Assembly (NCBI RefSeq): GCF_030412265.1
Contig: NZ_JAUHLN010000002.1
Span: 806,001-870,000 of the forward strand
Length of the DNA stretch: 64,000 nt
From: Fictibacillus terranigra
GTDB lineage: Bacteria; Bacillota; Bacilli; Bacillales; Fictibacillaceae
Direction: 5' to 3'
Under the pieces are notes generated by a model. The model did not search any database, had not been told where the DNA came from, and saw only the letters and a list, made by a program, of their open reading frames with translations. The stretch's first letter is position 1. Each line of letters begins with the position of its first letter. The position numbers were made by a program, and so were the translations under genes. This document shows, one piece after another, positions 3,829 to 57,078 of the stretch.

Positions 3829-4416
3829 TTACTGCTGTAAAATGGGTTTTGTAGAACATGCTTTTGTAAGCTTTTCCATTTTTTGGATGACGAGATCCGC
3901 CAACAGCTTATACCCCTTTTTATTGAAATGCAGGCCATCTTCGTTCAGCATCTGGCAATAATCCTTGCCGATCATCTCTGCCCACAAATCAACAAAATGA
4001 GTATTGTACTTTTTTGCCAGTTCTCTTACCGCTTTCGCATAGTGTTTTAAGCCCTCATTTGACCTCGCGTGCTGAAACCGCTCATTGACGGGAGATGGAG
4101 AAACAAGGATCACCTTTGATGGGCCCAGCTTTTCTATCATATATTCGAGATTATTCTTATATTCTTCGACTTCGATCAAGCGGTGGCTGCTCGCATCATT
4201 CGCACCAAAAAGGATGGTCACCAGATCAGGGTTATGCCGCAGCACATCTTCCTGGAAACGGGTTAATGCGACCCTTGTCGTTTCAGCAGGAACCCCGGCA
4301 TTTATAACATTCCATTTCTGCAGGGATAAACGAACGCGCGACGTCAGTCTAAGTGAACCATCATCGCTTTTTTCCTTGGATGTAATACTGTCACCGAAGC
4401 AGACCAATGTTTTCAT
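3829..4416 (-). CDS. SGNH/GDSL-family esterase
   Basis: A 195-residue SGNH hydrolase, expected to hydrolyse ester bonds in small lipidic or acetylated substrates. Block I is CFGDSIT (Ser near residue 9), block II carries NAGVPAETT, block III is FGANDASS and block V is EDGLHFNKKGY with the catalytic Asp and His. The overall pattern, including the KVILVSPSPV strand, resembles isoamyl-acetate-hydrolysing esterases (IAH1 type). There is no signal peptide, so it is probably cytoplasmic. The open frame extends to 4485, but the ATG at 4416 has GGGGGGAG 4 bases upstream and begins directly at block I, so I chose that. Substrate not predictable. Confidence 0.82.
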   Translation of the reverse strand: MKTLVCFGDSITSKEKSDDGSLRLTSRVRLSLQKWNVINAGVPAETTRVALTRFQEDVLRHNPDLVTILFGANDASSHRLIEVEEYKNNLEYMIEKLGPSKVILVSPSPVNERFQHARSNEGLKHYAKAVRELAKKYNTHFVDLWAEMIGKDYCQMLNEDGLHFNKKGYKLLADLVIQKMEKLTKACSTKPILQQ

Positions 4417-4504
4417 GAACTCCCCCCTTGCCACTTTTGTCGTTCCATTAACATAATTATTCGATCGTAAATTTGATTTACTCACAGTCGCAACGTGAAT
4501 ATTT

Positions 4505-4513
4505 TGTTATAAT
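4505..4513 (+). promoter_or_regulatory. Extended -10 promoter element for the GNAT/Nfu_N unit
   Basis: TGT followed by TATAAT (4508-4513) makes an extended -10 element 35 bases before the acetyltransferase ATG. No good -35 hexamer is visible, which is usual for TGnTATAAT promoters. Confidence 0.55.
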
Positions 4514-4547
4514 GTAGCTACAATACCTATTTGCATGGAGGATTTCA

Positions 4548-5000
4548 ATGTTTGTCTATGAAGTACCGGCTGACGCCACCGACGATTTAAAGAAAAAAAT
4601 AGCCGATTTGGTCTCTCAGCAGCGAACGCGGTCAGAAGATGATGGCAGTTATCAAAAAGTGTTAAGCGGCATTTCTTTGGCCATCCGGAAAGATTCGAAC
4701 TCGGGTGTCATTATTGCTGAGGAGGCAGGAGAAGTTCATGGAATAGCTTTTTACAACCTTGGAATCAGCTTGCCGCTCGGCGGGCCCTACCTTTGGCTGA
4801 ATGAACTTTTTGTCAGGGAAAATTCGCGAAACAAAGGGATCGCCAGAAAAATTTTGCTTCATCTGATCCATTGGGCAGAACGCGAAGGCATTAAGTCCAT
4901 CGAACTTGAAACCGGGATCAACAATTCAGTCACAAAACATTTGTATAATTCCCTTGATTTTCATGATATCGTTTCACAGAGGTATCAATTTAATTTCTAA
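4548..5000 (+). CDS. GNAT-family N-acetyltransferase
   Basis: A 150-residue acetyltransferase of the Gcn5 fold. The acetyl-CoA loop is visible as ENSRNKGIARKILLHL (R-x-x-G-x-A type) near residues 107-122, preceded by the beta-strand WLNELFVR and followed by the strand IKSIELETGINN. GGAGGATTTCA lies before the ATG. It is followed after 18 bases by an Nfu_N-domain gene on the same strand and probably co-transcribed with it. The acceptor substrate cannot be read from sequence. Confidence 0.85.
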   Translation: MFVYEVPADATDDLKKKIADLVSQQRTRSEDDGSYQKVLSGISLAIRKDSNSGVIIAEEAGEVHGIAFYNLGISLPLGGPYLWLNELFVRENSRNKGIARKILLHLIHWAEREGIKSIELETGINNSVTKHLYNSLDFHDIVSQRYQFNF

Positions 5001-27643: not shown

Positions 27644-27752
27644 CTCTCATCTGCCAGCTGACGCTGCAAGAATTAGCACCGTTTTTATCCTAAAGGATAA
27701 GCCGGTTGCCGGGTTTCATCGGGCCAGTCCCTCCACCTGCTCTTGATAAGAG
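27644..27752 (-). ncRNA. SAM-I (S-box) riboswitch aptamer upstream of mtnW
   Basis: The minus strand opens with CTCTTATCAAGAGCAGGTGG, then GGCCCGATGAAACCCGGCAACC, GGTGCTAATTCTTGCAGC and closes with GATGAGAG, which pairs with the opening CTCTTATC as P1. These are all the conserved S-box blocks. SAM binding is expected to favour the downstream terminator, so mtnWXBD is expressed when SAM/methionine is low. Confidence 0.96.
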
Positions 27753-30068: not shown

Positions 30069-30222
30069 CTCTTATCAAGAGCAGGTGGAGGGAATTTGGC
30101 CCGATGAAACCCAGCAACCGACCGTAATACCATTGTGAAATGGGGCGTCTACTACTAGAAGCCTGGAGAGTATGGCACGGTGCTAATTCCAGCAAAACGA
30201 TTATTGTTTTGCAAGATAAGAG
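30069..30222 (+). ncRNA. SAM-I (S-box) riboswitch aptamer upstream of mtnKA
   Basis: Starts CTCTTATCAAGAGCAGGTGG, continues with GGCCCGATGAAACCCAGCAACC and GGTGCTAATTCCAGCA, and closes with GATAAGAG, exactly complementary to the opening P1 arm. It has a longer P3/P4 region than the mtnW copy. It is followed by a strong terminator before mtnK. Confidence 0.97.
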
Positions 30223-55889: not shown

Positions 55890-56818
55890 TCACCGCTTAA
55901 TGTGTCTTTTATTCGTATACATTCTTTCATCCGCCAGACGCAGGTAATACTCAATGTTATCTACGGCGTCTTCATGCAGGCTTATCGTCCCATATGCCAG
56001 CGAAACACTGTCATTCCATGAACGCAAATAGCGGTCAAATCGGCCGGCGAGCTGAAAGGCTGTTTGCTCTGTATGGCCGGGAAGTAAAAATACGAACTCA
56101 TCTCCCCCGAACCGGAAGCCAAGATTCATTTTCAGCTTTTCAGCAAAGAACGCGAACTGCTGCAGCAATTCATCTCCCTTATGATGGCCAGACCGATCAT
56201 TGATCTCTTTAAAGTTGTTGATGTCCATCATGATCAGCGACAAGGGATACCTGTCCCTTGTCGCCTTCTGAACTTCCGTTTCAAGACAATGATAAAAATA
56301 GCGCCTGTTGTATAAGTTCGTCAAAGGGTCTCGAATGCTCAGCTCTTTCAATCGGCCGCTTGCTTTAAAAAATAACCGCTTAAGACACCGATCATTAAAG
56401 AATTGGCAGCATGTCCCCATCTCTCCAGAAAAAAAAGCTTATTCTCTGCTGTCTCTTCTTTAATCAGGTTCTGAACAGCACGGTTCCCCTCCTGCCGCAG
56501 ACTTTTTGCGAGAAGAGGCAGCAGCTGATGGGGAATTGCCTTTTGCCCTGCAAAATCATGCCCCTGCTTAAAACCGCGATCTTCCATTTGCTGCATACAG
56601 GAGTTGAACTCTTCATGCTGTATAAAAATACCGTTTATCAAGGCAGTTAACATTCTTTTCAAATGCAGCCGATAGTGTGAACCCGTATAGGCCAGGAAGG
56701 CAACAAACATTTCGTTCTTTTCCAAGTAAAGAAGGTGCCGGTTGATGATGCTGGGGATGGATGCAATATGTACGTTGTACAGACGGTTTTTGAGGTCGGC
56801 AATGTCCGTTTCTGCCAT
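55890..56818 (-). CDS. GGDEF diguanylate cyclase with in-gene -1 frameshift (sensor + GGDEF)
   Basis: Two overlapping frames make one 309-residue protein if the ribosome shifts -1 at 56366-56372. The zero frame (ATG 56818, AGAGGG 9 bases upstream) encodes a 156-residue helical sensor domain, ending at TGA 56350-56348. The -1 frame encodes the GGDEF domain: SIRDPLTNLYNRRYF, IMMDINNFKEIND, RFGGDEFVFLLPG and YLRLADERMYTNK, with an intact active site for making c-di-GMP. The junction would read GYFLKASGRLKELS. The downstream frame has no convincing start of its own. It is preceded by a c-di-GMP-I riboswitch. Alternatives are a real inactivating 1-base deletion in the T6 run or a sequencing error. 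Confidence 0.72.
56366..56372 (-). other. Canonical -1 slippery heptamer U UUU UUA
   Basis: In the zero frame the codons are TAT TTT TTA AAG, so the heptamer T-TTT-TTA is in exactly the phase required for simultaneous -1 slippage. The zero-frame stop lies 15 bases later and the -1 frame continues through the GGDEF domain. A strong downstream RNA stem is not obvious. Confidence 0.65.
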
Positions 56819-56894
56819 AGGTTGGATCCCTCTATTCAATAGGATTTAAGAAGTGACCGGCGTTTAATTCACGATGAATTTTGCCCGTACATAT

Positions 56895-56937
56895 CAAAAA
56901 AAGCCATCTCCTCCTGAGGGAAATCGCTCTTTTCCCT
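56895..56937 (-). terminator. Riboswitch expression platform (terminator and competing antiterminator)
   Basis: Terminator: AGCGATTTCC (56928-56919) pairs with GGAGATGGCT (56911-56902) with one G-G mismatch and is followed by T7. Antiterminator: AGGGAAA (56937-56931) pairs with TTTCCCT (56923-56917). The antiterminator consumes both the 3' strand of aptamer stem P1 and the 5' strand of the terminator, so the structures are mutually exclusive. Confidence 0.7.
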
Positions 56938-57026
56938 TTGGCAACCCGGCCGCCATGGTTTTTTACAAACGTTAGGCCCGCAGCTTTGCGTCCCACCTTT
57001 TCAGATGGTTTGCTCTGAGACAAAGG
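56935..57026 (-). ncRNA. Cyclic-di-GMP-I (GEMM) riboswitch aptamer
   Basis: The minus strand carries the GEMM-I blocks in order: GAGCAAACC, a P2 stem CCATCT-GAAA-AGGTGG with GNRA loop, GGGACGCAAAGC (within 56983-56997), the tetraloop-receptor strand GGGCCTAA, then ATGGCGGCCGGGTTGCC. P1 is CCTTTG (57026-57021) with CAAAGG (56940-56935). A 63-residue open frame over this region is a shadow. It controls the downstream diguanylate cyclase gene. Confidence 0.93.
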
Positions 57027-57049
57027 TCTCTTCCATTCATTTTATAGTA

Positions 57050-57078
57050 ATTATATACTATATTCCTATTATTACCAA
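57050..57078 (-). promoter_or_regulatory. Promoter of the riboswitch/diguanylate cyclase transcript
   Basis: TTGGTA (57078-57073), 17-base spacer, TATAAT (57055-57050); the predicted start near 57043 lies about 17 bases before the aptamer. Confidence 0.75.

Follow-up and report, generated by a model that had tools for sequence, protein, structure and literature searches.

The locus lies entirely on the minus strand of the window, by which we mean the whole 64,000-nucleotide stretch of Fictibacillus terranigra DNA analyzed here, and it is read from a promoter through a c-di-GMP-I riboswitch aptamer and a frame encoding a sensor domain into an ORF encoding a GGDEF domain (Table 1). The sensor frame, from ATG 56818 to the stop at 56348, comes to 156 residues by arithmetic, and the listing of this ORF starts at an upstream TTG and gives 163 aa. 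The sensor and GGDEF frames share a 30-codon overlap, 56438-56348, and joining them by a -1 shift gives a fusion of 309 residues, the same length as the protein in the nearest intact genomes. The earlier note had described a GGDEF gene split over two frames with an in-phase T TTT TTA heptamer, from which either a 156-residue sensor-only protein or a 309-residue -1 fusion could be read; the split is as described, the heptamer lies at 56372-56366, and we reproduced both lengths by arithmetic. On sequence grounds, the 3' part is a diguanylate cyclase domain with an intact GGDEF signature, which is present in the window and in all 22 orthologues described below.

Table 1. Features of the interrupted cyclase locus, in window coordinates
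Feature	Position	Strand	Basis
Sigma-70-like promoter, TTGGTA / 17 nt / TATAAT	57050..57078	(-)	Consensus scan, 10/12
c-di-GMP-I riboswitch aptamer	56937..57024	(-)	RF01051, 78.6 bits, E 9e-14
Candidate intrinsic terminator with T7 tail; excludes the GGGAAA/UUUCCC hairpin	56896..56928	(-)	Folding with and without constraints; function inferred
5' gene part: helical, globin-like sensor domain, 156 aa, premature stop	56348..56818	(-)	ORF and predicted fold
3' gene part: GGDEF (diguanylate cyclase) domain, -1 frame, 176 aa	55890..56420	(-)	PF00990, E 5.3e-32
In-phase T TTT TTA heptamer, most likely coincidental	56366..56372	(-)	Phase and orthologue comparison
Single-base gap in the alignment with the nearest relatives, at the zero-frame stop	56350..56351	(-)	Alignment; relatives in one frame

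Orthologues and the position of the break

A protein search of 34 genomes of the family at E values up to 1e-40 placed the gene in 23 of them, the window's own included, and an alignment-based search of 60 relatives at E up to 1e-60 again recovered these 23 genomes, with no match among the 26 from other families. The earlier note had asked how related genomes carry the reading frame, and the answer was the uniform one that the note had named as refuting its proposal: in all 22 other genomes with the gene it is unshifted, as one open frame without stops, and it is split only in the window's genome, the one genome by which this species is represented. The 22 orthologous proteins have lengths of 309-316 aa, and no two of them are identical in sequence. 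In this count L007, L008 and L028, which are one genome, were entered once, and L009-L014, which may duplicate some of the 22, were left out. Within the genus, three of seven genomes were without a match at an E cutoff of 0.001. The match in G014 showed one TGA in the alignment-based search, where it reaches profile position 313 of 314 in a frame of 315 aa; we took this TGA, near the end of the frame, as the natural end, and the protein search lists no stop there. At five of six distant Fictibacillus loci (L010-L014, ~4100-4550), a second GGDEF-like stretch lies ~630 bases downstream of the orthologue.

The two nearest genomes are 84% identical to the window at the DNA level, and we located the break by aligning the window with three copies that come from two genomes (L006 from one, L007 and L008 from the other). 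Throughout the coding part of the window there is a single one-base gap, at 56350/56351, which coincides with the zero-frame stop and lies 15 nt past the heptamer, outside the T tract. The zero frame is homologous to the relatives through the heptamer and up to the aspartate that immediately precedes the stop, and beyond the gap it is the -1 frame that is homologous, which puts the break at the linker between the sensor and GGDEF domains. At the position of the heptamer the two nearest relatives have a different codon, so that they share neither the slippery site nor the break. We also considered an ancestor with seven T at the heptamer and rejected it because the nearest relatives have this other codon there. 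Hence, the one-base deletion that the earlier note had offered as the competing explanation fits the comparison, but the T6 tract does not hold as its place, as the gap falls at the zero-frame stop and the relatives are without T7.

We then assessed the state of the coding sequence on either side of the break. Against G004, one of the nearest genomes, the sensor part had a dN/dS of 0.14 and the GGDEF part one of 0.055, the second being a rough value only at a dS of 1.35, and against G005 the corresponding values were 0.131 and 0.061. Of the columns that are invariant in 20 distant orthologues (defined without L028 and L029, the two nearest genomes of the 22), the window keeps all 60 in the GGDEF part and 12 of 13 in the sensor, and the single changed sensor column is at a position that is also changed in G004. 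From 81 mechanical ORFs of G004 (100 aa or more), 16 without a match of at least 60% in the window were dropped; among the remaining 65, which are syntenic, only the cyclase gene is frame-split, and one other runs past the end of the window. Given that the gene shows no other damage and that no other compared ORF is split, the break is recent or an error. PMC3711429 regards a frame transition seen as a singleton in a non-orphan gene as a likely indel or sequencing error.

The best explanation, to which we assign a probability of about 0.93, is that this is a riboswitch-controlled gene for a globin-like sensor-GGDEF cyclase, interrupted here by a recent one-base deletion or by a sequencing or assembly error. 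It rests on what was observed at the locus and in its relatives, namely that the orthologues are in one frame, where the gap falls, that the GGDEF part shows no decay and that the aptamer is conserved. Error forms one half of this explanation; that the organism has an unbroken gene, split only in sequencing or assembly, is a real possibility, which we put somewhat below even odds. The gene is otherwise undamaged, and according to PMC3711429 a singleton validated by homologues is expected to be an error and not a genuine indel. However, the sequence at the gap forms no long homopolymer, and every other ORF compared is unbroken within the window, which indicates that the assembly is not generally indel-prone.

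Slippery sequences in the overlap

To set the heptamer against its background, we scored in-phase X XXY YYZ heptamers in the 45 window ORFs of 150 aa or more (17,944 codons; overlapping ORFs were dropped and the sensor ORF is not among them). These ORFs contain 106 such heptamers, or 0.0059 per codon, with T TTT TTA itself in phase seven times, and at this rate at least one in-phase heptamer is expected in 30 codons with a probability of ~0.16. The overlap has three, T TTT TTT (56435-56429), T TTT TTA and T TTA AAG, of which the last two overlap each other, and this is more than the number predicted from the window rate. A T8 run at 56436-56429 (-) is also present, and the two nearest genomes have a shorter run there. 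The three heptamers and the T8 run together suit slippage better than average sequence does, which is weak evidence against the deletion reading.

The heptamer is missing at the window's place in all 22 orthologues. In L047 and L050, T TTT TTA lies five codons upstream of that place in an unsplit frame, and somewhere in the gene the unsplit orthologues carry T TTT TTA in phase in 13 of 22 cases and any in-phase heptamer in 21 of 22. When folded without pseudoknots, the 80 nt 3' of the heptamer gave a z-score of 1.70, a poorer fold than that of most shuffles (196 of 200 fold at least as well), and the 95-nt span around the heptamer was unremarkable (z 0.51, 131 of 200 shuffles at least as stable). 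Reading by eye, we saw no Shine-Dalgarno-like stretch before the heptamer. The riboswitch and the GGDEF domain exceed chance and the heptamer does not clearly do so; it is most likely a coincidence.

Several alternatives would give the split gene a continuing function. One is a real deletion after which the GGDEF part is made separately, by termination-reinitiation at a TTG overlapping the stop (TTGA, 56351) or from ATG 56420. Overlapping start and stop codons do exist in the sequence and the GGDEF part is undecayed, but by eye the TTG has no Shine-Dalgarno-like stretch before it and GGAGAG lies directly against ATG 56420, and with the arrangement found in no relative we regard this as very unlikely. 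Similarly improbable is a real deletion compensated by newly arisen slippery sequence, in which slippage would partly suppress the indel and give a low, riboswitch-gated level of fusion. The three in-phase heptamers and the T8 run of the overlap are, as this would have it, found in neither of the two nearest genomes, and an undecayed GGDEF part would be seen too if the fusion were still made, and hence counts against the deletion reading; even so, rescue of the split gene by slippage is unlikely.

The central claim of the earlier note was programmed -1 ribosomal frameshifting at U UUU UUA, which would yield both the sensor-GGDEF fusion and the sensor-only protein and so gate the synthesis of c-di-GMP. 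We rejected this reading and now consider it extremely unlikely, although the heptamer is correctly phased within the overlap, as the X XXY YYZ sites of dnaX-type programmed -1 frameshift genes are, the fusion has the length of the proteins of the nearest relatives, and the GGDEF part is undecayed. Against it, none of the 22 other genomes with the gene has split frames, the heptamer is unconserved, the gap relative to the relatives lies downstream of it, and it has no marked structure after it in the pseudoknot-free shuffle folding and no Shine-Dalgarno-like stretch discernible by eye before it. In addition, the zero frame still matches the linker of the relatives over about seven residues that slippage at the heptamer would exchange for others. 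The locus differs from dnaX-type genes in its lack of conservation, in that no stimulator was found, in having its gap elsewhere and in being confined to a single genome. In open-access texts we found no account joining UUUUUUA with programmed ribosomal frameshifting, and the terms diguanylate cyclase, GGDEF and programmed frameshift co-occur there only in what is, by its title, a Vibrio fischeri resequencing study.

We give almost no credence to RNA polymerase slippage on the T8 run 56436-56429 as a means of restoring the frame in some transcripts; the run is indeed within the overlap, but the nearest relatives combine shorter runs with one frame, ~27 residues would be replaced, including R133 and W134, which are invariant in 23 of 23 sequences, and PMC3711429 names T runs of more than 8 for slippage of this kind.

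Riboswitch, sensor and control of the cyclase

The match of the leader to RF01051, at 78.6 bits, is well above the gathering score of 35, and RF01051 is found upstream of the gene in 20 of 22 orthologues. This supports the c-di-GMP riboswitch that the earlier note had proposed ahead of a diguanylate cyclase gene, and shows it to be conserved. The two remaining orthologues, in G003 and G025 (L030 and L056), gave no riboswitch hit upstream, even with E values of up to 1 allowed. In the alignment with the two nearest genomes both promoter hexamers are retained and the spacer is not the same. Two SAM riboswitches (RF00162) are present elsewhere in the window, at 27644-27752 (-) and 30069-30222 (+). 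GEMM (c-di-GMP-I) RNAs are located upstream of certain diguanylate cyclase (DGC) and phosphodiesterase (PDE) genes, according to PMC12564702, and our locus has the same aptamer family and the same type of controlled gene; compared with these systems, the window copy precedes a broken gene and its OFF-switch logic is drawn from folding only.

In the window leader the P1 helix, CCUUUG/CAAAGG, is compatible with the terminator ending in T7, whereas the GGGAAA/UUUCCC hairpin cannot coexist with the terminator and also competes with P1. Folded to the end of the U run, the free leader had an energy of -47.7 kcal/mol, with the terminator formed and P1 not formed, compared with -44.5 kcal/mol when P1 was enforced, which kept the terminator, and -42.1 kcal/mol when the antiterminator was enforced. 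The free fold therefore already has the terminator, in a calculation without ligand or tertiary contacts, and the terminator hairpin is absent from the list of a simple terminator scan. These folds can be read as compatible with an OFF switch. In the intact relatives, binding of c-di-GMP would stabilize P1, the stabilized P1 would block the antiterminator and allow the terminator to form, and terminator formation would lower transcription of the cyclase, a negative feedback. If the deletion in the window is real, the strain would make a 156-residue sensor-only fragment and little or no sensor-controlled cyclase.

The product-inhibition site RxxD has its usual place before GGDEF, and there it was found in neither the window nor the 22 orthologues. 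With RxxD absent, feedback through the riboswitch may take the place of inhibition of the enzyme by its product.

The sensor part is 78% identical to the G004 protein over residues 1-166. It gave no good match to a Pfam family and no NCBIfam result, and a profile search of solved structures returned only two weak unrelated matches. From its predicted model (pLDDT 84.4), the sensor is predicted to resemble the globin sensor domains of globin-coupled sensors, with globins leading the Foldseek list. However, in comparison with the globin-coupled diguanylate cyclases DosC and BpeGReg, it has no Pfam globin match, its best Foldseek E value is 0.06, phycobiliproteins score as high as globins against the model, and no His is invariant in the 23 sensor sequences; H97 is present in 21 and H28 in 22 of them, neither of which was placed as the proximal ligand.

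Programmed frameshifting at this locus would have been a new way of controlling c-di-GMP synthesis, and the comparison with relatives removes that claim. The cyclases concerned are proteins without an RxxD site and with an unnamed globin-like sensor. What remains, for Fictibacillus and its relatives, is a conserved, riboswitch-controlled family of these enzymes in which the product probably acts at the RNA level to repress its own synthesis.
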